The notes beneath the pieces are model-generated. The model ran no database searches. It was not told where the DNA came from and saw only the letters and a list, made by a program, of their open reading frames with translations. Below are positions 28,734 through 58,474 of a stretch of DNA of 64,000 bases, in pieces. Position 1 is the first letter of the stretch, and each line of letters starts with the position of its first letter. Source of the DNA: Nitrobacter sp. Nb-311A (GTDB taxonomy: Bacteria; Pseudomonadota; Alphaproteobacteria; Rhizobiales; Xanthobacteraceae); NCBI RefSeq assembly GCF_000152905.1, contig NZ_AAMY01000004.1, positions 62,001-126,000 of the forward strand, written 5' to 3'. The translations under genes were made by a program, and so were the position numbers.

Positions 28734-28775
28734 GTTCACGGCATGAACAAAAGGCTTGACGTTCACAGTGTGAAC
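28734..28775. promoter_or_regulatory. Tandem palindromic operators over the start of the regulator gene
   Basis: GTTCACGGCATGAAC at 28734-28748 and GTTCACAGTGTGAAC at 28761-28775 share the half-sites GTTCA...TGAAC and are spaced 27 bp start to start. The first overlaps the putative ATG at 28743. Twin 15-bp palindromes at the start of a winged-helix gene suggest self-repression by a dimer. Confidence 0.6.
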
Positions 28776-29486
28776 GGGGTAAGCGGCAGTCCGATAAACG
28801 GGGCGATCAAGGTGTCGGACACCGCCAATACCAAGGACAGTGAGAACGGGATTATCCTGGGATTGCTGACGTCCCTCGCCGAGGATGGCGGGCTGTCGCA
28901 ACGGCGGCTGGCTGCGGAACTTGGTATCGCGCTGGGTCTTGTCAACGCGTATCTGAAGCGCTGTGTCAGTAAGGGGCTGGTTAAAGTCCAGAACGTTCCA
29001 GCGCGCCGCTACGCTTACTATCTTACGCCGAAGGGATTCGCGGAAAAGTCGCGCCTGACTGTCACTTACCTGTCGCAATCCTTCAGCTTCTTTCGTCAGG
29101 CGAAAAGCGACTGCGTCGCCATGTTCGAGGCGGCCAAGTCGCGCGGCCTGCGCACCGTCGTCTTGATGGGGCGTTCGGATCTGGCCGAGATCGCCGTGCT
29201 GTGCGCGATAGAAAGCGGCGTCGAGATTGTTGCGCTGATTGATGCCGAAACCAAATCGGGCCGGTTTCTGGGGATTCCTCTTGTCGCCTCGATCGGCGCC
29301 GTCGAGAGGAATTTCGACGCGGTCGTTATCACGGATTTGGTCGGCGCCCACGAGAGCCGGAATCTGGCCGCGCTGGCGGTTGGCAGGGATAGGGTTCTGC
29401 TTCCGCGTCTTCTAGGTATCGTGGAGGACCGTGAAGATTCGAATGATCAGAAAGATCCTGGCGGTCAGAAAGACTTGGCGTCATGA
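28743..29486 (+). CDS. Winged-helix regulator with C-terminal Rossmann-like domain
   Basis: 247-aa protein. Residues about 35-95 form a MarR-like winged helix (SQRRLAAELGIALGLVNAYL, then RRYAYYLTPKGFAEKSRLT). The rest (RTVVLMGRSDLAEIAVLCAI ... FDAVVITDLVGA) is a nucleotide-binding-like fold, perhaps sensing a nucleotide sugar or NAD. Start at ATG 28743 is uncertain; a GTG at 28770 is an alternative. Its stop overlaps the ATG of the RfaH-like gene (ATGA). Twin palindromes at its start suggest autoregulation. Confidence 0.82.
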   Translation: MNKRLDVHSVNGVSGSPINGAIKVSDTANTKDSENGIILGLLTSLAEDGGLSQRRLAAELGIALGLVNAYLKRCVSKGLVKVQNVPARRYAYYLTPKGFAEKSRLTVTYLSQSFSFFRQAKSDCVAMFEAAKSRGLRTVVLMGRSDLAEIAVLCAIESGVEIVALIDAETKSGRFLGIPLVASIGAVERNFDAVVITDLVGAHESRNLAALAVGRDRVLLPRLLGIVEDREDSNDQKDPGGQKDLAS

Positions 29487-29995
29487 CCGCTTCCGGACAA
29501 CAGTGGTATGTGGTGCAGACCCATCCGCATGCGGAAGGCAAGGCGGCCGCGCATCTGCGACGCCAGGGCTTTGAGGTCTATTTACCACGCTATGCCAGGC
29601 GACGCCGCCATGCACGTCGCGTTGACATCACGGCATCGCCGCTGTTTCCACGATATTTGTTCGTGGCGATCGATCTCGTTCATCAGAGGTGGCGTGCCAT
29701 ACGCTCGACGGTCGGTGTCACGAACCTCGTCTACAGTGGCGACGAGCCAGCGCCGGTGCCGGACGATGTCGTCCGGCGTCTGAAACAACGTGAAGATTCG
29801 AAGGGCTGCGTTCAACTCGATCTTGCGCCCCGATTTTCCGCCGGCGATACCGTTCGCGTCGTCGACGGCGCGTTTTCTGATTGCCTGGGCCTGTTCGAGT
29901 CGATGAGCGACGGCGAGCGTGTTCTGGTGCTGCTTGATCTTCTGGGCCGCAAGGTCCGGGTGACCATGGATATCGATACGATCGAGGCCGCGTAG
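29483..29995 (+). CDS. RfaH/NusG-family specialised transcription antiterminator
   Basis: 170-aa NusG paralog. NGN domain at residues 1-100 (WYVVQTHPHAEGKAAAHLRR, VYLPRY, FPRYLFVAID) and KOW domain at about 115-168 (FSAGDTVRVVDGAFSDCLGL, then GERVLVLLDLLGRKVRV, close to the RfaH GEARSMLLLNL region). Such proteins ride RNA polymerase and prevent Rho termination in long polysaccharide operons, being recruited at ops sites. An ops-like GGCGGTAGCAT lies 67 nt after its stop, at the head of the leg operon. Coupled to the regulator gene by ATGA overlap. Confidence 0.9.
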   Translation: MTASGQQWYVVQTHPHAEGKAAAHLRRQGFEVYLPRYARRRRHARRVDITASPLFPRYLFVAIDLVHQRWRAIRSTVGVTNLVYSGDEPAPVPDDVVRRLKQREDSKGCVQLDLAPRFSAGDTVRVVDGAFSDCLGLFESMSDGERVLVLLDLLGRKVRVTMDIDTIEAA

Positions 29996-30033
29996 AGCCA
30001 TCGGTTTTGATCACATCGGCGCTCACGGCGGGC

Positions 30034-30053
30034 GAGAGGGATGAATCCCTTTC
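30034..30053 (+). promoter_or_regulatory. RNA hairpin preceding the ops-like element
   Basis: GAGAGGGA, loop TGAA, TCCCTTTC: an 8-bp stem with one G-U pair and a 4-nt loop, ending 8 nt before the ops-like site. No T-run follows, so it resembles a pause or anti-pause element rather than a terminator. Confidence 0.5.
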
Positions 30054-30061
30054 ACCCGAAT

Positions 30062-30072
30062 GGCGGTAGCAT
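30062..30072 (+). promoter_or_regulatory. ops-like (operon polarity suppressor) element
   Basis: GGCGGTAGCAT matches the enterobacterial ops consensus GGCGGTAGnnT at every defined position. It lies downstream of the RfaH-like gene and about 33-43 nt before the likely legB start, in the leader of the 29-kb operon, just where RfaH would be loaded. Confidence 0.68.
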
Positions 30073-30104
30073 GGCTGTCGCAGATGACATTGTCGAATGA
30101 ACCG

Positions 30105-31115
30105 ATGAAACTTCAGGGCAAGAAAGTTCTAGTAACCGGCGCCGATGGCTTTATCGGATCGCACCTCACCGAGCACCTCATCGCGCAGGGCGCGAATGTG
30201 CGTGCATTCGTTTATTATAACAGCTTCAACTCCTGGGGTTGGCTCGACGAGACCGATGCGCAAGTCAAGCGCGAACTTGATGTGTTCGCCGGTGATATCC
30301 GTGATCCGAATGGCGTGCGGACGGCAATGCGTGGATGCGACGTGGTGTTTCATCTTGCCGCACTTATCGCAATTCCATACTCGTACCATTCTCCCGATGC
30401 GTATGTGGACACCAATGTCAGGGGTACGTTGAATGTCGTGCAGGCCGCGCGCGATCTCGGCGTTGAGCGGGTGGTTCATACCTCGACCAGCGAAGTTTAC
30501 GGGACAGCCCGTATCGTGCCGATTACGGAGGAGCATCCGCTCCAGGGACAATCGCCTTATTCGGCGACGAAGATTGGTGCGGACCAGCTCGCGATGAGCT
30601 TCCACCTTTCGTTCGGTACGCCGGTCAGCATCATCAGACCGTTCAACACGTATGGCCCGCGACAGTCGGCGCGGGCGGTGATCCCCACGATCATCACGCA
30701 AATCGCTTCGGGCGTGAAACGGATCAAGCTCGGTGCAATGACGCCGACGCGAGATTTCAATTACGTTCGCGACACTGTGCGAGGGTTCGTTGCAGTCGGC
30801 GAATGCGACCAAGCCGTTGGGAAGGTTCTGAATGTCGGCAGCAATTTCGAGATTTCGATCGGAGACACGGCCAGCTTGATTGCCCAACGGATGGGGAAGG
30901 ACGTCGAGTTCGAACTTGACCAGCAGCGCGTGCGTCCGGCCGGCAGCGAGGTCGAGCGCTTGTGGGCCGATAATACGAAAATCAACGAGCTGACAGGGTG
31001 GACGCCGGAGTATGCGCGCCGGGACGGGCTCTGTCGCGGCCTGGATGAAACCATCGCCTGGTTCAGCGACGCCGCCAATCTGCGACGCTACAAGGCCGAC
31101 CTCTACAATATCTGA
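30105..31115 (+). CDS. legB: GDP/UDP-GlcNAc 4,6-dehydratase LegB
   Basis: 336-aa SDR enzyme if started at ATG 30105 ([20 protein letters not shown]), the usual family start; upstream in-frame ATGs at 30060 and 30084 would put the ops element inside or very near the coding region. Motifs: [16 protein letters not shown] (NAD site), HTSTSEVYGTARI and SPYSATKIGADQL (catalytic Tyr and Lys). LegB makes the 4-keto-6-deoxy intermediate on the way to legionaminic acid, in the GDP-linked route known from Campylobacter. First gene of the operon. Confidence 0.88.
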   Translation: MKLQGKKVLVTGADGFIGSHLTEHLIAQGANVRAFVYYNSFNSWGWLDETDAQVKRELDVFAGDIRDPNGVRTAMRGCDVVFHLAALIAIPYSYHSPDAYVDTNVRGTLNVVQAARDLGVERVVHTSTSEVYGTARIVPITEEHPLQGQSPYSATKIGADQLAMSFHLSFGTPVSIIRPFNTYGPRQSARAVIPTIITQIASGVKRIKLGAMTPTRDFNYVRDTVRGFVAVGECDQAVGKVLNVGSNFEISIGDTASLIAQRMGKDVEFELDQQRVRPAGSEVERLWADNTKINELTGWTPEYARRDGLCRGLDETIAWFSDAANLRRYKADLYNI

Positions 31116-31117: not shown

Positions 31118-32350
31118 ATGCGCGAAACGACGGCTCCACGCGTGAACGGCGACCGGATGCAAATACATCCCGAACGTGCATCGAATGTGGTGGCGTCGGT
31201 GCTCGCAGCCATGCACGGATTGTTCGGCACGCCGGACAAGCGGATTGCGCTGCACGAGCCGGAGTTTCGCGGCGAAGAATGGACCTACGTCAAGGAGTGC
31301 ATCGATACCGGATGGGTATCGTCGGTGGGCTCCTATGTCGACCGGTTCGAGCGCGATCTGGCGGCGTTTGTGGGCTGCAAGCATGCCGTTGCGACATGCA
31401 ACGGAACATCCGCGCTTCACATCTGCTTGATTTTGGGAGGCGTGGAGGCGGATGATGAAGTTCTTATTCCGGCGCTGACCTTCATCGCGACCGCGAACGC
31501 GGTATCGTATATCCGCGCGGTGCCGCACTTTGTCGACAGCGAGACAATTTCGCTGGGAGTCGATGCAGGGCGGCTGGAGCGTTATCTCGAGCGTGTCGCA
31601 CAGGTTATCGGTGGCGTTTGCGTCAATCGCGCCACGGGTCGACGGATACGGGCGCTCGTCGTCATGCATGTGTTCGGGCATCCATCGGATCTCGATGCAC
31701 TAGTGGAAGTGGCCCGGCGATGGAAACTGGCCTTGGTCGAGGATGCCGCCGAATCTCTCGGTTCGTATTACCACGGTCGCCATACCGGAAATTTCGGATG
31801 CCTCGCTGCGCTGAGTTTCAACGGCAACAAGGTGATGACCACGGGCGGGGGCGGTGCGGTCCTTACAAACGATTCCGAACTGGCGAAGCGGGCGAAGCAT
31901 ATCAGCACGACGGCGCGCGTCGCGCATGAATGGAATTTCCTGCACGACGAGGTAGGCTACAACTACCGGATGCCGAATATCAACGCCGCGCTCGGCTGTG
32001 CGCAGCTCGAGCGGCTGCCGTCGATGCTGCAACGCAAGCGCCATCTGGCGGACCGTTACGGACAGGCATTTGCGGGGATCAATGGCGTCCGGCTTCTGCG
32101 CGAGCCACCGGGCACATCGAGCAACTACTGGCTGAACGCTATCATGCTGGATAATGGATTGGCCGCACGTCGCGATGAACTGCTCGGCACGCTCAACGAG
32201 GCAGGTTTCATGTCTCGTCCTGTCTGGACGTTGATGCACAGGTTGCCCATGTATCATGCCTGTCCGCGTATGGACCTCGATGTCGCCGAACGCATCGAGG
32301 CGCAACTCGTTAACCTCCCCAGCAGTCCCGGGTTGATCGCCTCACCATGA
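31118..32350 (+). CDS. legC: PLP aminotransferase LegC
   Basis: 410-aa DegT/DnrJ-type enzyme converting the LegB keto sugar to the 4-amino sugar. TCNGTSALHICLILGGV, LVEDAAESLGSYYHGRHTG and SFNGNKVMTTGGGGAVLTND (PLP Lys) are the typical LegC features. Starts 2 nt after the legB stop and overlaps legG by 4 nt. Paralog of the perosamine-synthase-like enzyme at 22329 but clearly of the Leg branch (longer, with the extended loop VAQVIGGVCVNRATGRR). Confidence 0.88.
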   Translation: MRETTAPRVNGDRMQIHPERASNVVASVLAAMHGLFGTPDKRIALHEPEFRGEEWTYVKECIDTGWVSSVGSYVDRFERDLAAFVGCKHAVATCNGTSALHICLILGGVEADDEVLIPALTFIATANAVSYIRAVPHFVDSETISLGVDAGRLERYLERVAQVIGGVCVNRATGRRIRALVVMHVFGHPSDLDALVEVARRWKLALVEDAAESLGSYYHGRHTGNFGCLAALSFNGNKVMTTGGGGAVLTNDSELAKRAKHISTTARVAHEWNFLHDEVGYNYRMPNINAALGCAQLERLPSMLQRKRHLADRYGQAFAGINGVRLLREPPGTSSNYWLNAIMLDNGLAARRDELLGTLNEAGFMSRPVWTLMHRLPMYHACPRMDLDVAERIEAQLVNLPSSPGLIASP

Positions 32351-33513
32351 ACCGACGAATTTGCGTCGTGACGGGCAGCCGCGCCGAATACGGATTGCTG
32401 CGCTGGATCTTGAGCGATTTGCGGGCCGCGGTCGATGTCGATCTTCAGCTGGTTGTGACCGGCATGCACCTGTCGCCGGAATTCGGCGGCACGGTCGGGG
32501 AGATCGAGAGGGACGGCTTTTCCATCACTCGCCGTGTGGACTCGCTGCTGTCGAGCGGCACTCCCGGGGGCATAGCAAAGTCGATCGGTCTCGGGGTGAT
32601 CGGCATGTCGGATGTCCTGGAAGATCTCAAGCCGGATATCGTGCTGATACTTGGCGACCGGTTCGAGATCTTCGCCGCCGCGCAGGCCTGCCTGGTCCAT
32701 AACATTCCGATCGCCCATATCGCGGGGGGAGACACGACCGAAGGCGCGATCGATGAAGCTATGAGGCATGCCATTACCAAGATGGCGCATGTCCATTTTG
32801 TCACGAATGCGGAATCAGCACACCGGGTGCGCCAACTCGGGGAAGATCCGTCGCGCATCTACGAGGTTGGAAGTCCGGGTCTTGACCATCTGCGTCGGCA
32901 GCCGCTCCTCGACCGGTCGGCGGTGGAATCCAGACTTGGAGCGCGGCTCGGCGAGAAAAATCTTCTGATTACTTTTCATCCGGTCACGCTTGAAGCCGCG
33001 CATGGCGAAGCGCAGTTCGCCGCACTGCTGGATGCACTCGATATGCTCGATGACGATACCGCGCTGTGGTTTACCCATCCAAACGCCGACGCCGGCGGCC
33101 GGACGATGGCTGCAAAGCTGAAGGCGTGGGTGCAGGCCCACCCGAATCGTGCGCGTCTGTATACGTCGCTTGGCCAGTCGCTTTACCTCAGTCTCATGGC
33201 TCAGGTGGACGCTGTAGTCGGAAATTCGTCGAGCGGACTTTACGAGGCGCCATCGCTCGGTGTCGCGACCGTCGATATCGGCGACCGGCAGCGTGGCCGT
33301 CTCGCCGCGACTTCGGTGCTGCACTGCGCGCCCGATTGCAACGCCATTCGGGAAGCGATCGCGAGAGCGATCCAGCTTGATTGTTCGGGAACGAAGAGTC
33401 CCTATGGTGACGGACATTCGTCGGAGAGAATCGTCGAAGTCCTAAGAGCGCTACCTCCGGCAATGGAGCTGATCGGCAAGCGGTTTCACATGATCGGGAA
33501 CGCCGATGCCTGA
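32347..33513 (+). CDS. legG: Hydrolysing NDP-sugar 2-epimerase LegG (NeuC-like)
   Basis: 388-aa GT-B-fold epimerase that removes the nucleotide and inverts C2 to give 2,4-diacetamido-2,4,6-trideoxymannose. Motifs: VTGSRAEYGLLRWIL, VTGMHLSPEFGGTVGEI, LGDRFEIFAAAQACL, AHIAGGDTTEGAIDEAMRHA and VVGNSSSGLYEAPSLGV, all matching NeuC/LegG. Overlaps legC (ATGA) and legI by 8 nt. Confidence 0.92.
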   Translation: MNRRICVVTGSRAEYGLLRWILSDLRAAVDVDLQLVVTGMHLSPEFGGTVGEIERDGFSITRRVDSLLSSGTPGGIAKSIGLGVIGMSDVLEDLKPDIVLILGDRFEIFAAAQACLVHNIPIAHIAGGDTTEGAIDEAMRHAITKMAHVHFVTNAESAHRVRQLGEDPSRIYEVGSPGLDHLRRQPLLDRSAVESRLGARLGEKNLLITFHPVTLEAAHGEAQFAALLDALDMLDDDTALWFTHPNADAGGRTMAAKLKAWVQAHPNRARLYTSLGQSLYLSLMAQVDAVVGNSSSGLYEAPSLGVATVDIGDRQRGRLAATSVLHCAPDCNAIREAIARAIQLDCSGTKSPYGDGHSSERIVEVLRALPPAMELIGKRFHMIGNADA

Positions 33514-34582
33514 GCGCACCCTGATCATCGCTGAAGCGGGCGTCAACCACAACGGCTCGGTCGAGCAGGCGCTCAGGCTTGTCGATGTCGCCGCCGATGC
33601 CGGCGCTGATATTGTCAAGTTTCAGACTTTCAAGGCGGACAAACTTGCGACGGCAAAGGCCGCGAAGGCGGAATATCAGGTCGTCAACACCCATGAAGCC
33701 GGTTCGCAGCTCGACATGCTTAGCGCGCTGGAACTATCGCTTGCGGATCATCGGATCATTGCGGAGCGTGCCCGCAGCCGGGGCATCGGCTTCATGTCGA
33801 CGGCGTTCGATGTCGAAAGTCTGGCGATGCTTGCGGCGTTCGAGATGCCGGCGATCAAGATTCCGTCCGGCGATGTGACCAGCGTCGATCTCTTGTTGCG
33901 ATCGGCGCGATCGGGAAAGCCGCTGATCATTTCGACGGGCATGGCGACCTTGGGAGAGGTGGAGCAGGCGCTGGGCGTCGTGGCTTTCGGACTCGTTACA
34001 GACAAGATGCCGAAGTTTCGCAAGGATTTCGAAGAAGCCTATTGCAGCAACGCAGGTCGCAACGCTTTGCGCGAAAAGATCACGTTGCTGCACTGTGTGA
34101 CGGAATATCCCGCGCTGCCGCAAACGATCAATTTGCGCGCGATGACCGCCATGGCCGCGGCGTTCGGCCTGCCCGTGGGATATTCCGACCATACGATCGG
34201 CATCGAGATCGCGCTTGCCGCGGTCGCGCTGGGGGCGGTCGCCATTGAGAAGCATTTCACGCTCGATCGCGGTCTGCCGGGCCCTGACCACAATGCGTCG
34301 CTTGAACCGCACGAATTGAAACAACTGGTGATGTCGATCCGCAATATCGAAAGCGCGTTGGGAAACGCCGTGAAGGGTCCGGACGCCCATGAGATGCGCA
34401 ATCGCGCGGTGGCTCGCCGCAGCCTCGTCGCCGCGCGTGCGATCCGCAAGGGGGATATCCTGACGCAGGACATGCTCGCCGAAAAGCGGCCCGGCACCGG
34501 CTTGCCGCCGATCGAGGCGCTGAGACTGATCGGCCGCCCCGCTGGGCGCGACTATATGCCTGATGATTTGATCGAACCATGA
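33506..34582 (+). CDS. legI: Legionaminic acid synthase LegI (NeuB family)
   Basis: 358-aa sialic-acid-synthase-type enzyme condensing the 6-deoxy-diacetamidomannose with phosphoenolpyruvate. TIM-barrel part: IIAEAGVNHNGSVEQALRLV, VKFQTFKADKLAT, IKIPSGDVTSVDLLLRSA, HCVTEYPALPQTINLRA and GYSDHTIGIEIALAAVALGA. A C-terminal SAF antifreeze-like domain (ARRSLVAARAIRKGDILTQD) completes the normal architecture. Overlaps legH by 4 nt. Confidence 0.94.
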   Translation: MPERTLIIAEAGVNHNGSVEQALRLVDVAADAGADIVKFQTFKADKLATAKAAKAEYQVVNTHEAGSQLDMLSALELSLADHRIIAERARSRGIGFMSTAFDVESLAMLAAFEMPAIKIPSGDVTSVDLLLRSARSGKPLIISTGMATLGEVEQALGVVAFGLVTDKMPKFRKDFEEAYCSNAGRNALREKITLLHCVTEYPALPQTINLRAMTAMAAAFGLPVGYSDHTIGIEIALAAVALGAVAIEKHFTLDRGLPGPDHNASLEPHELKQLVMSIRNIESALGNAVKGPDAHEMRNRAVARRSLVAARAIRKGDILTQDMLAEKRPGTGLPPIEALRLIGRPAGRDYMPDDLIEP

Positions 34583-35223
34583 AGCCCGTCATCATCATTG
34601 GAGCGGGTGGACACGCAGCCGTCGTCGCCGATGCCTTACAGGCGGCGGGTGTCAGTGTGTTGGGATTCACCGACGCCGACTCCACCAAGCATCAATCGCG
34701 GCAGTGCGGCCTGCCGATTCTGGGCGGCGATGCCATCGTTCTGGCTGGTTACGATCGGAATGAAGTGTTGCTGGCTAACGGCGTCGGCGGCGTGAGAGGG
34801 ACCGATGCGCGCAGGGCTCTGCAGTTGCGCCTTCAGGAAGCGGGTTGGCGGTTCACGACGGTGATACATCCGACCGCGATCGTCTCTCCTCATGCGCGGG
34901 TCGGCCACGGTGTTCAACTTCTCGCGGGCAGCATCGTTCAGGTTTCCGCAGTGATAGGTGAGGGGACAATCGTGAATACCGCGGCGATCGTCGAGCATGA
35001 TGTCGAGGTCGGAGACTATGTGCATGTGGCGCCGCGTGCGCTGTTATGCGGCGCGGTAACGGTCGGGAATTTAAGCCACATCGGAGCCGGCGCGGTGGTG
35101 CGTCAAGGTATTCAGCTTGGACAACATACGTTGGTTGGTGCCGGGGCCGTCGTCGTCAAGGATTTTGACGGAGGCGGGGAACTGGTTGGCATGCCGGCCC
35201 GTCCCGCCGGAGGTATCGCATGA
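34579..35223 (+). CDS. legH: NeuD-family acetyltransferase, probable LegH
   Basis: 214-aa enzyme with an N-terminal nucleotide-sugar-binding Rossmann part (VIIIGAGGHAAVVADALQAA) and a C-terminal left-handed beta-helix of hexapeptide repeats (HPTAIVSPHARVGHGVQLLA ... GAVTVGNLSHIGAGAVVRQG). Expected to N-acetylate the 4-amino sugar made by LegC with acetyl-CoA. Overlaps legI and ptmE by 4 nt on each side. Confidence 0.87.
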   Translation: MKPVIIIGAGGHAAVVADALQAAGVSVLGFTDADSTKHQSRQCGLPILGGDAIVLAGYDRNEVLLANGVGGVRGTDARRALQLRLQEAGWRFTTVIHPTAIVSPHARVGHGVQLLAGSIVQVSAVIGEGTIVNTAAIVEHDVEVGDYVHVAPRALLCGAVTVGNLSHIGAGAVVRQGIQLGQHTLVGAGAVVVKDFDGGGELVGMPARPAGGIA

Positions 35224-36269
35224 AAAACTGGGAGATCGTTCTTATTGATCCCGAGTTGTCGCTGCGAGAAGCGCTCGAGGTGATCGACAGGGCAGGGACG
35301 CGCATGGTTCTGATTGTCGATGAAAATCGCAGGCTGCTCGGGACGCTCAGCGACGGCGACGTACGCCGCGGGCTTCTGCGGGGGCTTACGCTGACCGATA
35401 GAGTTTCGCAGTCGATGCACGTCAATCCGACCGTCGCGAAGTCCGACGAGGACATTCCGGCTATCATCGCATCGATGCGGAGCCGGGGTGTCTATCAGAT
35501 GCCCATCCTCGATCATGAAGGCATCGTCGTTGGCCTGCAGACCATCGATGATTTGCTGACAACGCCGAAGCGTGACAATTGGGTTGTGATCATGGCCGGC
35601 GGCCGGGGCGCGCGGCTGGCCGAACTGACCAGCGAGACGCCCAAGCCGATGTTGAAGGTCGGCTCACGGCCCTTGCTTGAGACCATCATCTCGAGTTTCT
35701 CGCAGCAGGGGTTCCACCGTATCTTGCTGGCGGTCGGTTACAGAGCCAGGCAGATCGAGGACCACTTCGGCGACGGGTCGTCGTTTGGGGTGGATATCTC
35801 GTATCTTCGCGAGGACAAGCCGCTCGGGACCGCAGGCGCGCTGAGCTTGCTGACCGAGCAGCCAACGCTGCCATTGGTCGTGACCAATGCCGACCTTCTG
35901 ACCAAGGAAGATTACGGCCATATGCTCGACAGACATGTCGAGTCGAGAGTCGACGGGACAATGGCTGTTCGTACCTATGACATGCAGGTTCCGTTCGGCG
36001 TTGTGCGCGAAAATGGCGCGGGAATTGAGGCGATCGAGGAGAAGCCAATTCAGAGCTTTATCGTCAATGCAGGCATGTATGTGCTGTCGCCATCGAGTCT
36101 GGGTCTGATCCCGAAGAATGCGACGTTCGACATGCCGTCGCTGTTTGATGCGATGATGAAGCATGGAATGACGACGCGGTGCCATCACATCGATGGCTAT
36201 TGGCTCGATATCGGTCGAATGGCTGACTATGAGCGGGCGAACGTCGATTTTGCAGAGATTTTTAGATGA
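35220..36269 (+). CDS. ptmE: CBS-pair plus sugar nucleotidyltransferase, PtmE-like
   Basis: 349 aa. Residues 1-115 are two CBS domains (LREALEVIDRAGTRMVLIVD and the second repeat ending VVGLQTIDDLLTT); residues 120-349 are an NTP_transferase domain (VVIMAGGRGARLAELTSETP, KPMLKVGSRPLLETII, LVVTNADLLTKEDY). This fusion is the signature of PtmE, which makes GDP-GlcN(Ac) as entry to the GDP-based legionaminic pathway. The CBS part may sense nucleotides. ATGA overlaps with both neighbours. Confidence 0.88.
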   Translation: MKNWEIVLIDPELSLREALEVIDRAGTRMVLIVDENRRLLGTLSDGDVRRGLLRGLTLTDRVSQSMHVNPTVAKSDEDIPAIIASMRSRGVYQMPILDHEGIVVGLQTIDDLLTTPKRDNWVVIMAGGRGARLAELTSETPKPMLKVGSRPLLETIISSFSQQGFHRILLAVGYRARQIEDHFGDGSSFGVDISYLREDKPLGTAGALSLLTEQPTLPLVVTNADLLTKEDYGHMLDRHVESRVDGTMAVRTYDMQVPFGVVRENGAGIEAIEEKPIQSFIVNAGMYVLSPSSLGLIPKNATFDMPSLFDAMMKHGMTTRCHHIDGYWLDIGRMADYERANVDFAEIFR

Positions 36270-36982
36270 TCGACGGGCGGTCGGTTCTCGCGATCATCGC
36301 GGCCCGCGGCGGATCGAAGGGAGTGCCGGGCAAGAACATCGTGCCGATCGCCGGGCGTCCGCTGATCCAGTGGAGCATCGATGCTGCCCGAAAATCGTCT
36401 CATGTGGATCGGCTGATCCTGTCGTCTGACGATGCGGCAATCATCGAAGTCGCCAAACGCGCGGGATGTGATGTGCCGTTTATCCGAGATGCGGCGCTCG
36501 CCACCGATGAGGCGTCATCGATGGATGTCGTGGCTGACGCGTTACGCCGCGTCCCCGGTCATGACATCGTCGCTCTGTTGCAGCCGACGTCGCCGCTGCG
36601 AACGGCAGCCGACATCGACGGCGCATTGATGAAACTTGTTGAAAGCGGCGCGCCGGCTTGCGTTAGCGTCCGCGAAGCAGAAGATCATCCCTATTGGACT
36701 TTTCGGCTCGATTCAGCCGGCCGGCTCGCGCGATTTACTGAACCGGATGGCGATCTACCGCAGCGCAGGCAGGATTTGCCGCCGGCGTGGTGTTTGAACG
36801 GCGCAGTCTATGCCGCCCGTGTCGACTGGTTCATGCGTGCGCGGACGTTTCTGTCGGATGAAACCGTCGGTTTCGTCATGCCGGCCGACCGTTCGCTCGA
36901 CATCGATACATTTGCCGACATCGAGCGGCTTAGGAATATAGCAGGAGAGAATGGCAATGGATCGATACCCTCGTCACCGTGA
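36266..36982 (+). CDS. legF: CMP-legionaminic acid synthetase LegF (NeuA family)
   Basis: 238-aa cytidylyltransferase activating the nonulosonic acid. Motifs: AIIAARGGSKGVPGKNIVPI (CTP binding), LILSSDDAAIIEVAKRAG, LLQPTSPLRTAADIDGAL and LDIDTFADIERL (metal-binding Asp pair). With legB-legC-legG-legI-legH-ptmE it completes CMP-Leg5Ac7Ac synthesis. The next gene starts inside its 3' end (36951), so the amidotransferase is part of the same translation chain. Confidence 0.93.
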   Translation: MIDGRSVLAIIAARGGSKGVPGKNIVPIAGRPLIQWSIDAARKSSHVDRLILSSDDAAIIEVAKRAGCDVPFIRDAALATDEASSMDVVADALRRVPGHDIVALLQPTSPLRTAADIDGALMKLVESGAPACVSVREAEDHPYWTFRLDSAGRLARFTEPDGDLPQRRQDLPPAWCLNGAVYAARVDWFMRARTFLSDETVGFVMPADRSLDIDTFADIERLRNIAGENGNGSIPSSP

Positions 36983-38273
36983 CGTCGACATGGCGCCGTT
37001 TTCGTCCGAGCGGCCTAATCATGCGCGTTACGGCCTGCCGGTGCAGGTTTGCTTTTGCAAGAGCTGCGTAATTTCCAACCAGCGTCCTAACTCCACGATC
37101 GAGTACGAGCACACGAAGAACAGCAAGAAAAAAACCATCAACTTCGACGCCGAAGGCGTCTGCGACGCCTGTCGGGTGGCTGAGCACAAGGCTAGGACTA
37201 TCGATTGGTCGGCCCGCGAAGCGGAGTTGCGCGAACTTTGTGATCGTCATCGCAAAACCGACGGGACCTATGACTGCATTCTGCCCGGCTCTGGCGGAAA
37301 GGACAGCTTTTATGCGGCGCACATTCTGAAGACCAAATACAATATGCATCCACTGACGGTCACCTGGGCGCCTCATATCTATACGGATTGGGGGTGGCGC
37401 AACTTCCAGTCATGGGTCCATGCCGGGTTCGATAACTTCCTCTGCACGCCGAATGGTCGGGTTCATCGCCTGCTCACGCGCCTCGCGGTGGAAAATCTTT
37501 TTCATCCGTTTCAGCCGTTTATCTTCGGCCAAAAATCTCTCGCGCCGAAGATGGCGCTTCTGCACAAGATTCCGCTGGTATTCTACGGCGAGAACGAAGC
37601 GGAGTATGGTAATCCGGTCGCCGACACGCAAACGGCGCGCCGCGACTGGTCGTATTTTGCGGCTCAGGACAAATCCAAGATTTACTTGGGGGGGACGTCA
37701 ATTGCCGATCTGCAGGATCAGTTCGGCGTCGACCTACACGAACTGCAGCCGTACATGCCGGCCGATCCCGTGGCAGTCGAACGGCAGAAAGTCGATGTGC
37801 ACTACCTTGGCTATTACCTGAAGTGGCACCCGCAAAGCTGTTACTACTATGCCGTTGAGCATGGCGGCTTCCAGGCTTCGCCGGAGCGAACCGCGGGGAC
37901 TTACAGCAAATACAATAGCATCGACGATCGCATTGATGATTTTCATTACTACACGACGTTCATCAAGTTCGGTATCGGCCGTGCTACCTACGATGCGGCT
38001 CAAGAAATTCGTTCCGGCGACATTACCCGTGAAGAGGGTGTCAGCCTAGCGCGTCGCTTCGACGGAGAATTTCCCGAGCGGTTCGCCGAAGAAATCTTTC
38101 GCTACCTGAGCATTCCCGAGGCTGAGTTTCCAAAGGCATCAAAGATGTTCGAGCAACCCGTCATGGATCGGAGATATTTCGATAATCTGGCTGACTCCTT
38201 CCGGTCGCCGCATCTTTGGAAGTACGAGAAGGGCGCGTGGTCATTGCGCAAGACAGTCTGGAACGAAGAATAG
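36951..38273 (+). CDS. N-acetyl sugar amidotransferase 1 (PseA/WbpG type)
   Basis: 440-aa PP-loop ATPase that turns a sugar N-acetyl group into an acetamidino group using ammonia. N-terminal Cys pairs VCFCKSCVISNQRPNS and VCDACRVAEH give a zinc site; the PP-loop is LPGSGGKDSFYAAHILK. Longer than the WbpG-like paralog at 46995. Its overlap with legF and the following hisF/hisH-like genes suggest it makes 5-acetamidino-legionaminic acid or its CMP form, as in Legionella and Campylobacter sugars. AGGAGAG immediately precedes ATG 36951; ATG 36957 is equally possible. Confidence 0.86.
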   Translation: MAMDRYPRHRDVDMAPFSSERPNHARYGLPVQVCFCKSCVISNQRPNSTIEYEHTKNSKKKTINFDAEGVCDACRVAEHKARTIDWSAREAELRELCDRHRKTDGTYDCILPGSGGKDSFYAAHILKTKYNMHPLTVTWAPHIYTDWGWRNFQSWVHAGFDNFLCTPNGRVHRLLTRLAVENLFHPFQPFIFGQKSLAPKMALLHKIPLVFYGENEAEYGNPVADTQTARRDWSYFAAQDKSKIYLGGTSIADLQDQFGVDLHELQPYMPADPVAVERQKVDVHYLGYYLKWHPQSCYYYAVEHGGFQASPERTAGTYSKYNSIDDRIDDFHYYTTFIKFGIGRATYDAAQEIRSGDITREEGVSLARRFDGEFPERFAEEIFRYLSIPEAEFPKASKMFEQPVMDRRYFDNLADSFRSPHLWKYEKGAWSLRKTVWNEE

Positions 38274-38276
38274 AAC

Positions 38277-39035
38277 GTGGCCAACGTACGTCTCATCGCC
38301 CGGCTCGATGTCAAGGGCCCCAACCTGATCAAGGGAGTGCATCTTGAGGGTTTGCGGGTTATCGGCGATCCCCAGGAGTATGCGCGCCGTTACTACGAGC
38401 AAGGCGCGGATGAGCTTATCTATATCGACATTGTCGCAAGTCTCTACGGGCGCAATAACCTGACGGATATCGTCCGGCATGCGGCGCGCGATGTTTTCGT
38501 TCCCATGACCGTCGGCGGCGGCATCCGCAGTTCCGATGATGTGCGGGATCTGTTGCGCGTGGGCGCGGACAAGGTTGCGATAAATACCGCGGTAGTGAAA
38601 CGGCCGGAGCTGATCACCGAGGTCTCGCGCCGGTTCGGTTCGCAATGCATGGTATTGTCGATCGAGGCGAAATCACGCGGCGATGGCCGCTGGGAGGTCT
38701 ACACCGATTGCGGCCGCGAGCGTTCGGGTCTCGACGCCGTTGAATGGGCGCGGCGCGGCATCGAGCTTGGTGCAGGTGAAATCCTGTTGACGTCAATCGA
38801 TCGCGAAGGAACGCGCAAGGGTTTTGACGCGGAATTGACCAGGGCGGTCGCCTCTGCCGTCTCCGTTCCCGTTATAGCGAGCGGCGGATATGGCGAGCCA
38901 CGCCATCTCGCCGAGGTTGTTTCCGCGGGCGCGGACGCAATCGCAGTTGCCGACGCACTTCACTACAATCGTACGACCGTTCCTCAGTTGCGCGAAGCCG
39001 CGCAGGCGCAAAACATTCCTGTGAGGGCGGTGTGA
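38277..39035 (+). CDS. HisF-like ammonia-channel partner 1
   Basis: 252-aa beta/alpha barrel of the HisF type (LIARLDVKGPNLIKGVHLEG, PMTVGGGIRSSDDVRDLLRV, LLTSIDREGTRKGFDAEL). In histidine biosynthesis the two catalytic acids are Asp11 and Asp130 (Thermotoga numbering). The first is kept here (RLDVK), but the second is Glu (SIEAK), and no other his genes are near. It is therefore expected to channel ammonia from the HisH-like glutaminase to amidotransferase 1 rather than make imidazole glycerol phosphate. GTG start; overlaps hisH-like by 4 nt. Confidence 0.86.
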   Translation: MANVRLIARLDVKGPNLIKGVHLEGLRVIGDPQEYARRYYEQGADELIYIDIVASLYGRNNLTDIVRHAARDVFVPMTVGGGIRSSDDVRDLLRVGADKVAINTAVVKRPELITEVSRRFGSQCMVLSIEAKSRGDGRWEVYTDCGRERSGLDAVEWARRGIELGAGEILLTSIDREGTRKGFDAELTRAVASAVSVPVIASGGYGEPRHLAEVVSAGADAIAVADALHYNRTTVPQLREAAQAQNIPVRAV

Positions 39036-39676
39036 GCAAGGCCAGAGTGACCGTCGTCGATTATGGCACCGGTAATCTCTTCAGCGTGCAACGGGCGCTG
39101 GACCATTGCGGTGCGGACGTCAAGATGTCTTCGAAGACGGACGACATCGTTGCCGCGGATCGGCTTGTGTTACCCGGGGTCGGCGCCTTTGCCGATGGAA
39201 TGAAGGGATTGCGTGATCGCGGCCTTATCGAGCCGTTGCTGCAATTTGCTGCGACGGAGCGACCGATGCTCGGAGTCTGTCTCGGAATGCAAATGCTGGC
39301 AACGACGAGCGAGGAGTTCGGCCAGCACCAAGGACTTGGCCTGATACCCGGCCGGGTCAGGCAGGTTCCGACGCAAGCAGTCAACGGAGAGCCTAACAAG
39401 ATTCCTCATATCGGCTGGAGTGAAATATCGCCCGCATCCGGCGGCACGTGGAAGGAGACGATGTTGGAGAATACTACGGCCGGCACGCCTGTGTACCTGG
39501 TGCATTCGTTCCATCTTATTCCCGACGATCCTGCGCATCTGCTGGCCGATTGCGGCTATGGAGGCCATCGCGTGACGGCGGCCGTTCGCTCAGGCGCGAT
39601 AGTGGGAGCTCAGTTTCACCCCGAGAAGAGCGGCAAGGAAGGTCTGAAAATGCTGACCGCGTTTCTCCGGCTGTAA
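39032..39676 (+). CDS. HisH-like glutaminase 1
   Basis: 214-aa class I glutamine amidotransferase. Nucleophile Cys in MLGVCLGMQMLATTSE, and His/Glu in GAQFHPEKSGKEG; VDYGTGNLFSVQRALDH at the start is typical HisH. It releases ammonia from glutamine for the preceding HisF-like/amidotransferase pair. GTG start overlapping the hisF-like stop (GTGA). Order here is amidotransferase-HisF-HisH. Confidence 0.9.
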   Translation: MSKARVTVVDYGTGNLFSVQRALDHCGADVKMSSKTDDIVAADRLVLPGVGAFADGMKGLRDRGLIEPLLQFAATERPMLGVCLGMQMLATTSEEFGQHQGLGLIPGRVRQVPTQAVNGEPNKIPHIGWSEISPASGGTWKETMLENTTAGTPVYLVHSFHLIPDDPAHLLADCGYGGHRVTAAVRSGAIVGAQFHPEKSGKEGLKMLTAFLRL

Positions 39677-39694
39677 GGTCCGACTGTATCTGAC

Positions 39695-41017
39695 ATGAAG
39701 GTGTTCCGAGCCGGGGCCATCTACGCGGCCGCCAATGTAGCGTCAGCAGCGGTACCGTTTTTGCTCTTGCCGCTCCTCACCCGGGTGCTTTCTCCTGCCG
39801 AATATGGGCACATCGTTGCCTTCGCACTGCTGATGACGTTCTGCATGCCTTTCGCAGGGCTTAGTGTACATGCGGCCGTTGGAGTCGCCTGGTTTTCGCG
39901 GCCGCGCGATCAGATCCCGGCGTACAACGGCACGGCTTTGGTCCTCGCGATCGGGGCCACGTTGCTGGTTGCGCCGATTGCTGTTCTGATCGTGATGGCA
40001 GCGCCCTCGCTGGTCGCGGACCTTCCGGCGCCATGGGCGGCGGTGGCGGCGCTAACCGCTGGCGCGAATGTCATTCTTCAGTGCCGCCTGGTGCTGTGGC
40101 AAAGCCAGCAGCAGCCATTCAAAAATGCGCTTCTGCAAGTGACGGCGAGCGTGCTGAATGTCGGCTTGTCGTTGATTGCGGTTCTTTGGCTTGGGTGGGG
40201 CGCCGCTGGCCGTAATGGGGGGATCGCGCTTTCAGCCGTCGCCATGGCGTCTGGAGCGCTCATCATATTCGCAGTTTCGCGGGACGCGGTTTTGTCAATC
40301 CGCGTCGACTATTTGAAACAGCAGATACGCTACGGACTGCCGTTGATTCCCCATGTGATGGCAGGGGTCATTCTCGCGACGGTCGATAGATGGATGGTTT
40401 CGACGCAGCTCGGTTCGAAAATACTCGGCATTTACGGAGCCGGGGCCCAGCTGGGAATGGTGATGACCATCCTCGCCGATGCCTTCGTGAAAGCCTATAA
40501 CCCCTGGCTCTACGCGAGGTTGAAAACAGGGGATGCGAGCGACAAGCTTCGCATCGTGGGAGTGATCTATATCGCCGCGCCGATCTTTCTCGGCCTGGCG
40601 GCTGCGGTTGAGGTCGGTTTGCACTGGACCAGCGGCCTTTTGCTTGGCCCGCGCTACGCGGAGGCTGTGCAGATGCTTCCCTGGTTCGTGCTTGGCGGGG
40701 CCTTCAGCGGCGTCTATTTCTGCACATCGAGCATCTATTTCTTTCAAGAGCGGACAGCTCTCCTGGCGTCGTCCTCGGTCAGTGCGGCCGCGTTGGGTGC
40801 GATCGTCGTCTGGGTATTGATCTTGACGTTCGGCGCGCAAGGCGCGGCGATAGGGTATGCCGCCACGCAAGGCATTCTGGCTTTGTTTGCGACGACCGTC
40901 GCCATAAGAAGCTTCGATCTGCCGTGGTTCGAACCGCGGCGTGCGATAGCCGCGTTGTTGCATGGCGCTTACATTTCAAATCCCCTTGAATCCCCAAGCC
41001 TCCAGGATCGCCCTTGA
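39695..41017 (+). CDS. wzx: Polysaccharide flippase (Wzx-type)
   Basis: 440-aa MATE-like membrane protein with about 12 helices, starting MKVFRAGAIYAAANVASAAV. LPLLTRVLSPAEYGHIVAFA is the characteristic first conserved block of Wzx/RfbX transporters. Moves undecaprenyl-linked repeat units across the inner membrane. ATG 39695 lies 18 nt after the glutaminase; the following gene begins 1 nt after its stop. Confidence 0.88.
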   Translation: MKVFRAGAIYAAANVASAAVPFLLLPLLTRVLSPAEYGHIVAFALLMTFCMPFAGLSVHAAVGVAWFSRPRDQIPAYNGTALVLAIGATLLVAPIAVLIVMAAPSLVADLPAPWAAVAALTAGANVILQCRLVLWQSQQQPFKNALLQVTASVLNVGLSLIAVLWLGWGAAGRNGGIALSAVAMASGALIIFAVSRDAVLSIRVDYLKQQIRYGLPLIPHVMAGVILATVDRWMVSTQLGSKILGIYGAGAQLGMVMTILADAFVKAYNPWLYARLKTGDASDKLRIVGVIYIAAPIFLGLAAAVEVGLHWTSGLLLGPRYAEAVQMLPWFVLGGAFSGVYFCTSSIYFFQERTALLASSSVSAAALGAIVVWVLILTFGAQGAAIGYAATQGILALFATTVAIRSFDLPWFEPRRAIAALLHGAYISNPLESPSLQDRP

Positions 41018-41018
41018 T

Positions 41019-42062
41019 ATGACAATACGCTCTTCCGCTCCCACCGGCTTGCGTGCGGCTGTTACCGGTCTTGGCCGCATGGGAATGCGGCACCTCGAGG
41101 CGATCACCGGTCTCGGAATGACGGTCTGTGGCGTGTCCGATATAGCGGAGCAAGCCCGCGCCGCAGCAAGAGAAGCCTGCAAGCTCGATCCATCCGCGAG
41201 CTTCGCCGACGGTGTTGAAATGCTGCGCAGCGTTCGTCCCGATGCGCTTGTCGTAGCGACAACGGCGCCATCTCATGCGCCGCTCGTCGTGGCGGCGGCC
41301 AAGGCGGGAGTGCGTTATATCCTCTGCGAGAAGCCAATGGCGACCTCGCTTGGCGAGGCGCGTGAGATGATGGATGCGTGCAGGCGCTCAGGAACCCTGC
41401 TGGCGATCAATCATCAGATGCGCTTTATGGAGCAATACACCCGCATGAAAGCCTTGATCGGGTCCGAGCAACTCGGACCCCTGGCGAGCGTCGTGGTGGC
41501 CGCGTCGAATTTCGGGCTGGCGATGAATGCCAGTCATTACTTCGAGATGTTCCGGTATGTCAGCGGCGTTCCCGTCCACTCGGTCAACGCTTGGTTTGAA
41601 GACGCCAAGCTCGCTAATCCGCGCGGCCCGCAGTTCGAGGACAGATCGGGACGTATTCTGGCGCACAGCCAGAGCGGCCCGTCATTGTATCTCGATTTTT
41701 CGGTCAACGCCGGCAACGGCATCAACGTCGTTTACATTTGCCGGTATGGCCAGATCGTGGTGGACGAACTGAACGGCGCGATGCGGGTGATCGCCCGAAA
41801 GAGCGAGTTTCGCGATCTTCCCACGACCAGATACGGCATGCCGTCTGACATTCGTACGGAAAGTATTGCGCCCGCGGACGTGGTGGGACCGACGAAAGCG
41901 CTCTGGACAGCGCTTCTCGCCGGACAATCCTATCCCGATGGCGAAGCCGGAATTCATGCGCTGGCGTGCTGTGTTGCCGCGCACGTCTCGCACGAAAATG
42001 ACGGGGCCGCCGTTGCAATCGGGCAGTCGTTGCCTGATGCGCGCCGGTTTCAATGGGCCTGA
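41019..42062 (+). CDS. Gfo/Idh/MocA oxidoreductase 1
   Basis: 347-aa NAD(P)-dependent sugar dehydrogenase. Rossmann part AAVTGLGRMGMRHLEAITGL and ILCEKPMATSLGEAREMMDA (catalytic Lys in EKP), followed by the alpha/beta substrate domain. ATG 41019, directly after the wzx stop, is the first start fitting the family; an upstream in-frame ATG lies inside wzx. Paired with the next oxidoreductase. Oxidoreductase pairs occur in nonulosonic-acid loci, but their reaction is not known. Confidence 0.85.
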   Translation: MTIRSSAPTGLRAAVTGLGRMGMRHLEAITGLGMTVCGVSDIAEQARAAAREACKLDPSASFADGVEMLRSVRPDALVVATTAPSHAPLVVAAAKAGVRYILCEKPMATSLGEAREMMDACRRSGTLLAINHQMRFMEQYTRMKALIGSEQLGPLASVVVAASNFGLAMNASHYFEMFRYVSGVPVHSVNAWFEDAKLANPRGPQFEDRSGRILAHSQSGPSLYLDFSVNAGNGINVVYICRYGQIVVDELNGAMRVIARKSEFRDLPTTRYGMPSDIRTESIAPADVVGPTKALWTALLAGQSYPDGEAGIHALACCVAAHVSHENDGAAVAIGQSLPDARRFQWA

Positions 42063-42087
42063 GACGAATGCGAGCTGAGCGTTGATC

Positions 42088-43041
42088 ATGAAAAGATGGA
42101 AGATTGCGATCGTCGGGGCCGGGCACATGGCTCAGGAACACGCGAGGGCGATCCATTCGCTGACCGAGGTGGATATCGCCGGAGTTTGCAGCCGCACCCG
42201 GTCGCGTGCGGAAGCGCTTGCACAGACCTATTCGGTGCCTGTTTTTAACAGCATTGAAGAGATGTATGATGCCACGCGAGCCGATGCTGTCGTGGTTGCC
42301 GTCAACGAGCTGTCGATGCCGGAGGTCTGTGGCGAGTGTTTCAGGTTTCCGTGGGTATGTCTGCTCGAAAAGCCGGCCGGCGTCGATCTCGCCGCCGCGG
42401 AGCGCATTCTCGATAACAGCCGCCGGACCGGCAGCCGCGCATACGTGGCGCTAAATCGTCGGTCGTACGCCGCCACGAGGCAGGCGCTTGCCGAATTGGC
42501 GGCTGACGATAGTCCGCGGTTGATTTCGATTCTCGATCAGGAGGATCAGGAAGCAGCACGCGGTGCGGGACAGCCAGAGGAGGTTGTTCGCAACTGGATG
42601 TATGCCAATTCGATCCATCTCATCGACTATTTCAGTTTCATGGCGCGGGGCGACGTTGTTTCCGTCGAACATGGCATCCCCTGGTCGCCGGACTCGCCCG
42701 GGTTCGTCGTTGCCACGATCCGGTTTTCCAGCGGCGATGTCGGCGTGTATCAGGTTGCATGGAACGCGCCGGGGCCATGGTCGGTGAGCGTCACGAATCG
42801 TAGCCTCCGTCTCGAGATGCGCCCGATCGAGAAGCTTGCGGTTCAGCGGCGCGGCGAGCGCCGTCTGACCGATGTCGCTCCTGAATCCATCGATTCCGAA
42901 TACAAGCCCGGTCTGCGTTATCAGGCGGAGCAGCTCGTGGAGGCGCTCAAGGGACATGCGCCGAACCTCGCCTCGCTCGAGGAGGCGACGCGCTCCATGG
43001 CGTTGTGCGCAAGAATCTACGGACTTGGCTCCCGTGACTAG
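42088..43041 (+). CDS. Gfo/Idh/MocA oxidoreductase 2
   Basis: 317-aa enzyme beginning MKRWKIAIVGAGHMAQEHAR (NAD site), with CLLEKPAGVDLAAAERILDN carrying the EKP Lys. The C-terminal half has NWMYANSIHLIDYFSFMARG, the conserved His region. A TTG 6 nt upstream (42082) is an alternative start. It overlaps the next gene by about 8 nt. Probably modifies the same sugar as oxidoreductase 1, or the pair acts as an oxidation/reduction couple. Confidence 0.84.
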   Translation: MKRWKIAIVGAGHMAQEHARAIHSLTEVDIAGVCSRTRSRAEALAQTYSVPVFNSIEEMYDATRADAVVVAVNELSMPEVCGECFRFPWVCLLEKPAGVDLAAAERILDNSRRTGSRAYVALNRRSYAATRQALAELAADDSPRLISILDQEDQEAARGAGQPEEVVRNWMYANSIHLIDYFSFMARGDVVSVEHGIPWSPDSPGFVVATIRFSSGDVGVYQVAWNAPGPWSVSVTNRSLRLEMRPIEKLAVQRRGERRLTDVAPESIDSEYKPGLRYQAEQLVEALKGHAPNLASLEEATRSMALCARIYGLGSRD

Positions 43042-46979: not shown

Positions 46980-46994
46980 AAGCTGGAAGAGAAT

Positions 46995-48751: not shown

Positions 48752-48753
48752 GC

Positions 48754-49560: not shown

Positions 49561-49585
49561 CAAGCCTAGGATCGCGTAAGGCTTG
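49561..49585 (+). promoter_or_regulatory. Hairpin directly after the second hisF-like gene
   Basis: CAAGCCT and AGGCTTG form a perfect 7-bp stem around an 11-nt loop, starting right at the TGA. No T-run follows and the operon continues, so it is more likely a processing, stability or attenuation element than a full terminator. An RfaH-type factor could be needed to read through. Confidence 0.4.
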
Positions 49586-49623
49586 GACAGGCATGACATT
49601 CTGGCGGAGACGCGGGTTTATTC

Positions 49624-52900: not shown

Positions 52901-52981
52901 TACGATGCTAATCGGTGTTGAGGTCATTACTGTTGCAGCGTTTCCCTGCGTGCTAAGCTGAGTCTGATCCACATCCAAGGA

Positions 52982-54214: not shown

Positions 54215-54296
54215 GCGATTGGGCTAGACCGAACTTAATCACACACTCCAATACCCCCAACAATGGTCCGCTCAGACATGATGAAAGGAATTGCGT

Positions 54297-55250: not shown

Positions 55251-55423
55251 CTTCCAACCAAGCAGAGGGTCGCAAGGGGGGAGTGTTGACCTCGTAACTT
55301 TAGAGCGACAGCTAAAAGCTCCCGCACAAGCCCATGATGCGCCGCATAGTGCGTCGCTTTGCGGTTTCTGGCTCGTTTCCTATGTCACCAGTTTCCAATT
55401 TAGCATTTAGCCGGAAGATCCAG
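55251..55423. other. Gap between the Wzz-like and wbpA-like genes
   Basis: 173 nt, the largest gap in the operon. It contains TTGACC near 55288 as a possible -35 word but no convincing -10 at the right distance. An in-frame extension of the wbpA-like gene up to 55334 has no ribosome site and is not protein-like. Confidence 0.35.
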
Positions 55424-57792: not shown

Positions 57793-57793
57793 T

Positions 57794-58372: not shown

Positions 58373-58474
58373 ATTGGCGTCGAACGGGTAAGCGAGCAGA
58401 AAGATTGAAAAGCCGTGCCCGACGAGGTGAAGAGTTGGGACAGGAAGTTCTGACGGATTGAATCGGGCATAAGC

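Follow-up and report, generated by a model that had tools for sequence, protein, structure and literature searches.

The window, a 64,000-nucleotide stretch of the Nitrobacter sp. Nb-311A genome, carries on its forward strand two small regulatory genes, a predicted RNA hairpin followed by a sequence resembling the Escherichia coli ops element, and then a long run of polysaccharide genes (Table 1). A first-pass annotation had reported a NusG paralog, an ops-like 11-mer (GGCGGTAGCAT) preceded at 8 nt by an 8-bp hairpin, and a same-strand operon of roughly 29 kb, and each of these was recovered. The 11-mer occupies positions 30062-30072, its first base being the 67th after the stop codon of the paralog gene. 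The inner stem of the hairpin (8 bp, 30034-30041/30046-30053) ends 8 nt before the 11-mer, as claimed, and the full predicted hairpin is larger, with 12 bp and one mismatch. The gene run comprises 28 same-strand ORFs from 30060 to 59395 with no gap above 102 nt (about 29 kb). A rival ORF on the other strand (57713-58558, 281 amino acids) is without a Pfam match; the + strand ORF there has hexapeptide repeats.

Table 1. Features of the locus, in window coordinates
Feature	Position	Strand	Basis
MarR_EPS-like winged-helix regulator with C-terminal extension	28743..29486	+	HTH_24 42.3 bits; TIGR04176 65.2 bits, cut-off 88 not reached
NusG paralog, putative RfaH-like antiterminator (P0001), 170 aa	29483..29995	+	Pfam NusG 88.8 bits, cut-off 22.2
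Predicted RNA hairpin, 12 bp, one C-A mismatch, 5' half of element	30029..30058	+	folding; covariation across loci; match to covariance model R1 at 30027-30075, 39.7 bits
Putative ops-like pause/loading sequence GGCGGTAGCATG, G1 to G12 in E. coli ops numbering	30062..30073	+	kept in relatives
LegB-type NAD-dependent 4,6-dehydratase, first gene past element	30105..31115	+	TIGR04180 535.7 bits, cut-off 475
LegC, NeuC-type, NeuB-type, PglD-like, CBS/NTP-transferase and CMP-transferase (CMP-sugar synthetase-like) genes	31118..36982	+	nonulosonic-acid pathway
Remaining presumed operon	36951..59395	+	ORF chain; Pfam
Within the remaining operon: HisF/HisH-like pairs, flippase-like protein, GFO/IDH/MocA oxidoreductases, glycosyltransferases			
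Also within the remaining operon: CapD-like, WecB-like, UDP-glucose dehydrogenase-like, hexapeptide transferase, epimerase			

The regulator gene overlaps the start of the paralog gene, which makes co-transcription probable. Among loci L026-L045, 15 of the 16 examined have a regulator-type ORF (204 to 243 amino acids) that overlaps the paralog match or ends at most about 20 nt from it, and all 10 upstream ORFs scanned match TIGR04176 (MarR_EPS), each under the cut-off. Regulator and putative antiterminator are, at the level of sequence, a conserved gene pair. No intrinsic terminator was predicted between the paralog gene and the operon, nor was a T-tract terminator predicted at the hairpin; four terminator-like matches (1.5 expected) were set aside, as they lie inside the paralog gene (29855) or legB (30190-30211) and not between the two.

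From its first genes (LegB, LegC, NeuC-type, NeuB-type, PglD-like, CBS/nucleotidyl-transferase and CMP-sugar synthetase-like), the operon was assigned a legionaminic-acid-type nonulosonic acid pathway. For the first of these, the longest ORF nominally starts at 30060 and so overlaps the 11-mer. The LegB family match, however, covers this ORF only from residue 23 onward, and position 30105 offers an in-frame ATG; the element was therefore read as leader, and is most likely untranslated and not coding. Two HisF/HisH-like pairs stand inside the one polysaccharide gene run (38277-39676 and 48137-49560); we presume that they may serve an amidotransferase-dependent sugar modification. Past the run, on the other strand, are a glycosyl transferase family 4 protein (59449-60483) and an IS110-type transposase (61415-62446, -). 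Nitrobacter winogradskyi NBRC 14297 has a paralog 87% identical to that of the window. At the N. winogradskyi loci L013/L026, the legB-like gene diverges from the window sequence about 50 nt past its start in a manner resembling an insertion or deletion; paralog and element are intact there.

The window paralog scored best with the RfaH family (TIGR01955, 134.9 bits) without meeting its cut-off of 144.5. Scores with UpxY (NF033644, 83.5 bits), LoaP (NF033641, 45.3 bits) and housekeeping NusG (TIGR00922, 70.9 bits) were likewise under the respective cut-offs of 100, 125 and 135.7, and a stronger NusG match lies elsewhere in the window genome, at C41. Strict membership in RfaH, LoaP or UpxY was rejected on these scores. 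Aligned with E. coli RfaH, the paralog reads K10H, H20H, R23R, Q24Q, R73V, E48S and F56F, with T72 kept. Among the ops-contact side chains used for comparison, taken from the part of PMC5995543 available, K10, H20, R23 and R73 correspond to H, H, R and V, so that two of four are kept. The autoinhibition test of RfaH was failed: E48 is replaced by S, and the C-terminal domain was modelled as a beta-barrel and not as an alpha-helical KOW (AlphaFold2 on a 25-sequence alignment, mean pLDDT 84.7; prediction only). In Foldseek searches, NusG chains took the best E-values and RfaH chains appeared from rank 5; the modelled N-terminal domain superimposed on the RfaH-NTD/ops structure 5OND with an rmsd of 2.2 A over 94 columns. 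Being under the TIGR01955 cut-off, with two of four ops contacts replaced and the autoinhibition residue lost, the window protein falls outside RfaH as strictly defined.

The 11-mer alone was discarded as evidence, since its consensus, GGCGGTAGNNT, has 24 matches across the 4.1-Mb genome; the window itself holds one further exact match (23970-23980, -) and, with at most one mismatch allowed, 20 matches against 10.6 expected. The case beyond chance is supplied by conservation, whose absence in related loci had been named beforehand as grounds for refutation. A close orthologue of the NusG paralog was found in 4 of 9 genomes of the genus (83-100% identity, the window's own counted), and all four carry an identical GGCGGTAGCAT at a stop-to-11-mer gap of 57-66 nt; the element recurs in the family and the class, so the test was passed. 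The core common to more distant relatives is TTCACCCGGAnTGCGGTAGCNTG. Among the 24 loci L026-L049, no such element was present in the stretch after the paralog in six (L033, L041 and L046-L049); L033 has a variant element about 4.6 kb downstream of its paralog, and L045 has the variant core GCGGCAGC.

A survey of 296 genomes of the family returned 92 copies of the paralog profile in 83 genomes and 111 places in 95 genomes matching the exact pattern CACCCNNNNNGCGGTAGC. For 50 of the 92 family paralogs, that pattern (CACCC-N5-GCGGTAGC) follows the profile match in the same orientation at a distance of 42-300 nt (42-98 nt in 46 of them), where about 0.002 coincidences would be expected by chance (estimated from 111 matches over about 3 Gb on both strands, with 5-Mb genomes assumed). 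The remaining 42 have no exact element adjoining, and relaxed scans found near-variants, such as CACCGGGGCTGCGGTAGC, at some of them. As judged from these comparisons, the association of 11-mer and paralog is not chance. As in ops, the core is followed by TG (T in 35/43, G in 36/43); position 1 is usually T (36/43). The invariance of GCGGTAGC in the training set of the position weight matrix (PWM) is by construction, as an exact core was demanded there. In a scan of paralog-adjoining elements that required CACC and GCG..AGC, so that only bases 5 and 6 could vary, G5 was found in 72 of 73 and T6 in 66 of 73. CACC stood 38-102 nt past the paralog stop in 64 of 66 cases. The variant cores were GCGGCAGC (n = 5; L045, L143, L208, L228 and L229), GCGGAAGC (n = 1) and GCGTGAGC (n = 1), the last two at L146 and L227.

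When 125 distinct paralogs scoring at least 110 bits were compared over at most about 320 nt past the stop, 66 were followed by GCGGTAGC, 7 by a variant core and 52 by nothing. Of the 66 that adjoin a T6 element, Q24 is present in 65 and R23 in 51. Ten paralogs have E/D-R at positions 23-24, nine of them without an adjoining element and one with GCGGCAGC; none has GCGGTAGC. R-Q at these positions also occurs in 29 of the 52 paralogs without an adjoining element, so that the pocket alone does not predict one. An acidic residue 23 accompanies C6 in 3 of 5 cases and T6 in 0 of 66 (p = 0.00017), and Arg at residue 73 does so in 4 of 5 and 7 of 66, respectively (p = 0.0016). This putative protein/DNA covariation at ops base 6 is suggestive, a lead resting on five C6 cases only, and these are not independent, as the paralogs of L208, L228 and L229 share one nearest T6 relative. 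The seeds of the related-loci search included FEVYLPRY, and the conservation of that motif in the paralog profile (A2) is partly selected.

The first-pass annotation had taken the 11-mer as the signal. It is indeed kept in relatives; the conserved unit is nevertheless wider and, by the comparative evidence, is a JUMPstart-like hairpin plus ops of about 45 nt. The hairpin was counted as part of the element because its arms covary. In an arm-swap test on 64 non-redundant elements, own arms gave a mean predicted folding energy (MFE) of -13.99 kcal/mol versus -10.88 when swapped (sd 0.30, lowest -11.80 in 200 permutations); all 64 had a PWM score of at least 20, and they include L094, located within an ORF and possibly background. 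The 3'-arm variants CCCAAAGT, CCCGAAGT, CCCTGTGT and CCCGTGGT are each paired with a fitting 5' arm. In the model-fitted alignment A4 (89 copies), paired cells amounted to 56.5% versus 52.3% when shuffled and two-sided changes to 64 versus 43.6, while pairs with two-sided change and further pair types were not above shuffles. This pair count agrees more weakly with arm covariation, being only modestly above shuffles, and the arm-swap test was given more weight because the stem register varies. In 28 of 64 elements, the predicted helix extends up to the base that precedes GCGGTAGC, which leaves about 10 nt to the pause position T11; in 43 of 64, it ends no more than 2 bases from the core. The window helix stops earlier, with 3 nt left to the 11-mer and four bases between it and GCGGTAGC. 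A known RNA family was rejected as the identity of the element, as an Rfam scan found no family over its cut-off and only two weak matches, both far under theirs.

To compare element and paralog by genome, the covariance model R1 and the paralog profile were run on the same 367 alphaproteobacterial genomes. R1 was built from alignment A3, for which 42 of the 64 non-redundant elements were picked by hand, so structured copies are favored, and its E-values are rough. Genome counts from R1 and A2 are lower bounds, with at most 16 R1 and 9 or 12 A2 candidates scored per genome and stricter filters for R1, and the surveyed genomes are related, so that counts are not independent. At an E-value of at most 1e-4, R1 gave 54 matches: 25 follow a paralog on its own strand at less than 500 nt, 25 lie elsewhere in paralog-bearing genomes (15 on a different contig from the paralog and 10 on its contig), and 4 come from genomes in which no paralog was detected. 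Counted by genome, element and paralog are both present in 47, the element alone in 4, the paralog alone in 36 and neither in 280 (Fisher p = 1e-31, uncorrected for relatedness); no strong R1 element was thus found in 36 of the 83 class genomes with a paralog. At E-values up to 1e-3 (70 matches used, weaker ones left out), 14 of 70 were in genomes without a detected paralog, and weak R1 matches therefore include noise. Together, co-occurrence and the covarying hairpin point to what would be a dedicated factor/site pair.

The earlier proposal of a cis-encoded RfaH/ops circuit fits the window, where the circuit looks purely cis because the element at 30029-30073 is the only R1 match in the genome at an E-value of at most 0.01. 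It is too narrow for relatives, whose elements stand also or only away from the paralog, so that the circuit is not purely cis. Two elements are plainly distant, one at 647 kb (G556, class survey) and one at 362 kb (G086, family survey, single-contig chromosome). A place away from the paralog does not always prove trans action: some elements lie on the same strand within a few kb, among them three of the 25 non-adjoining class elements, 1.6-5.8 kb downstream, which may share the transcript, and another contig in a draft assembly may be near. First genes were annotated for 10 non-adjoining elements, all from the family survey, of which four (L111, L112, L114 and L115) are 2-9 kb downstream of the paralog and six on other contigs or more than 30 kb away. 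Seven of the 10 first genes encode clear sugar or polysaccharide enzymes (dehydratases, DegT aminotransferases, a CapD-like protein, a glycosyltransferase and UDP-glucose dehydrogenase); the other three encode asparagine synthase (the 362-kb case), a methyltransferase and a Band_7 protein. In G051/G080 (L120, L121), G354, G476, G649 and G571, the element lies on the strand opposite the paralog, 1.4-2.9 kb away, as if it served a divergent operon. A survey of 378 genomes of the phylum gave 19 R1 matches at an E-value of at most 0.001, seven of them outside the class; at L204 (G736, another class of the phylum), a strong R1 element stands 49 nt after an A2-type paralog, which suggests an older origin or transfer.

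Overall, the RfaH/ops-circuit interpretation of the first-pass annotation is supported, with Rho suppression and an effect on distal genes remaining inference. We consider it likely that the 45-nt element at 30029-30073 is an alphaproteobacterial counterpart of JUMPstart/ops at which the NusG paralog encoded just upstream is loaded, and that this paralog would antiterminate the operon; pausing, binding, antitermination and coupling are inferred. RNA polymerase would transcribe the regulator and paralog genes, form the hairpin and pause at the junction of GGCGGTAGCAT and the following G. In the bubble, non-template GCGGTAGC would fold into a small hairpin, of which the N-terminal domain of the paralog would read T6. 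The paralog would then displace NusG on the polymerase, suppress Rho-dependent polarity and probably couple a ribosome, so that transcription of the 29-kb sugar operon reaches its end; the tight spacing to the stop codon would favor loading on the factor's own transcript. Anatomy, conservation, hairpin covariation, co-occurrence by genome and copies away from the paralog come from the sequence comparisons themselves, while loading, NusG exclusion and read-through are inferred from RfaH biology. That the sequence is read is argued from the copies away from the paralog and from the conserved recognition bases, and that the factor is less restricted than E. coli RfaH, from the loss of the autoinhibition residue and the beta C-terminal domain. 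Counting against this reading are the replacement of K10 and R73, both needed for ops reading in E. coli RfaH, the loss of E48, the predicted beta C-terminal domain, the many paralogs without an adjoining element, which have no traced target, the window helix that stops 3 nt short of the 11-mer, the merely modest excess of the pair count over shuffles, the view in PMC13015549 that proteins of this type work in cis and need no ops, and the lack of pausing, binding and expression data; the whole case rests on comparative evidence.

Several of these points would also suit a monomorphic, always-active NusG-type factor that loads in cis while it is being made, with the element a mere strong pause, keeping polymerase close to the translating ribosome, whose sequence the factor does not read. 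The predicted beta C-terminal domain, the lost E48, the unkept K10 and R73 and the tight spacing of CACC to the stop codon are as expected for such a factor, and PMC13015549, in the part available, reports ops-independent activity of monomorphic, beta-CTD RfaH homologues in E. coli. We hold this improbable, because 25 of the 54 class elements occupy other sites in genomes with a paralog (though three of these follow it on its strand by a mere 1.6-5.8 kb, perhaps on one transcript) and one family element lies 362 kb from its paralog on a single-contig chromosome. Moreover, G5, needed for RfaH and not for pausing according to the portion of PMC5995543 at hand, is G in all but one of the 73 adjoining elements, and residue 23 varies with base 6, being acidic in 3 of 5 C6 cases and in no T6 case.

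The covarying hairpin, together with the MarR_EPS-like gene that immediately precedes the paralog in all 10 scanned loci, could instead mean that the element is an attenuator, a riboregulator or the site of another factor, such as the MarR_EPS-like protein, and that its link to the paralog is operon hitch-hiking. This appears very improbable: the hairpin has no predicted T-tract terminator, no Rfam family is over cut-off, the 3' half matches the E. coli ops core, and even elements that stand apart from the paralog follow its distribution among genomes (no separate count was made for the MarR-like gene). That the 11-mer arose by chance, or that the module is merely inherited and has no function, draws only on the loose-consensus and one-mismatch counts given above and is scarcely credible, given the exact extended element beside 50 of 92 paralogs, the covarying hairpin arms, the unalike flanking DNA, and the co-occurrence by genome in the class survey. 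The element is thus probably an ops-type site of a co-encoded RfaH-like elongation factor, acting in cis in the window and elsewhere also in trans, its function being inferred. More speculative, and in our judgment rather doubtful, is a class-wide system whose single factor recognises a signal in two parts: T6 of the non-template ops hairpin, by way of the H20/R23/Q24 pocket, and the nascent RNA hairpin next to it, by way of a conserved basic HAR loop or the KOW domain, as LoaP does with RNA. The RNA-contact residues E40/R41 of LoaP would fall near this HAR loop, as placed solely by an offset in the family alignment. If true, the RfaH and LoaP modes of recruitment would be joined, and a non-autoinhibited, co-encoded factor would pick its own transcript and also serve distant operons.

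A hairpin-ops element tied to an operon-linked paralog in dozens of alphaproteobacterial genomes would be a concrete recognition signal, in contrast to the proposal in the 2026 preprint PMC13015549, as far as its available part goes, that operon-linked beta-CTD RfaH homologues act in cis without ops. From the element, a regulon can be predicted for each genome. It also suggests that JUMPstart architecture is not confined to Gammaproteobacteria, and covariation-guided mutants could serve to test what the JUMPstart hairpin does. Within the sections of PMC7593976 (2020) available, the recruitment of operon-encoded NusG paralogs is called unknown, E. coli RfaH is the sole representative with a detailed known mode, and Alphaproteobacteria hold RfaH-like proteins (18% of rfaH genes), one cluster of which is associated with an HTH regulator. 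No account of an alphaproteobacterial ops or JUMPstart was found among the matches listed, a weak negative because only open-licence papers, without supplementary files, were covered.

Among known systems, the closest is JUMPstart/ops of Gammaproteobacteria (RF01707), whose conserved stem-loop is described in the part of Weinberg 2010 available (PMC2864571). Both have a stem-loop and then directly ops (GGCGGTAGCNTG) in the leaders of polysaccharide operons; the E. coli waaQ copy checked shows the same order, and the window element meets the JUMPstart criterion of a stem-loop directly 5' of ops ahead of envelope genes. The two differ in hairpin sequence (TTCACCCGG arm), in ops position 1, which in the alphaproteobacterial element is mostly T and stem-paired in 28 of 64 predicted folds, and in that element's frequent place directly behind the gene of its own factor. 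RF01707 itself (gathering score 35) had no match in 19 related loci and none at an E-value of at most 10 in window positions 29950-30150, whereas the E. coli positive control scored 55.2 bits. With E. coli RfaH, the window paralog shares the NGN and KOW domains, F56, H20, R23, Q24, T72 and a likely role in antitermination of long envelope operons, and it meets the RfaH criterion of an ops-like element in the leader of the target operon, the operon as target being inferred; it differs at K10, R73 and E48 and in its predicted beta C-terminal domain. It is also encoded beside its presumed target, whereas E. coli RfaH acts in trans (PMC7593976, in part). In this position it resembles the cis-encoded UpxY, TaA and LoaP (PMC7593976, in part) and the monomorphic RfaH homologues (PMC13015549, in part), which likewise stand in or next to their presumed operons. 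LoaP uses an RNA hairpin helped by a downstream pause, according to the available text of PMC12691694; unlike UpxY and LoaP, the window paralog falls under the cut-offs of both families and has an ops-like site. What would be new, on sequence comparison, is an alphaproteobacterial JUMPstart-like element with a co-encoded factor, and the kind to which it would belong, JUMPstart/ops with RfaH, is already known.
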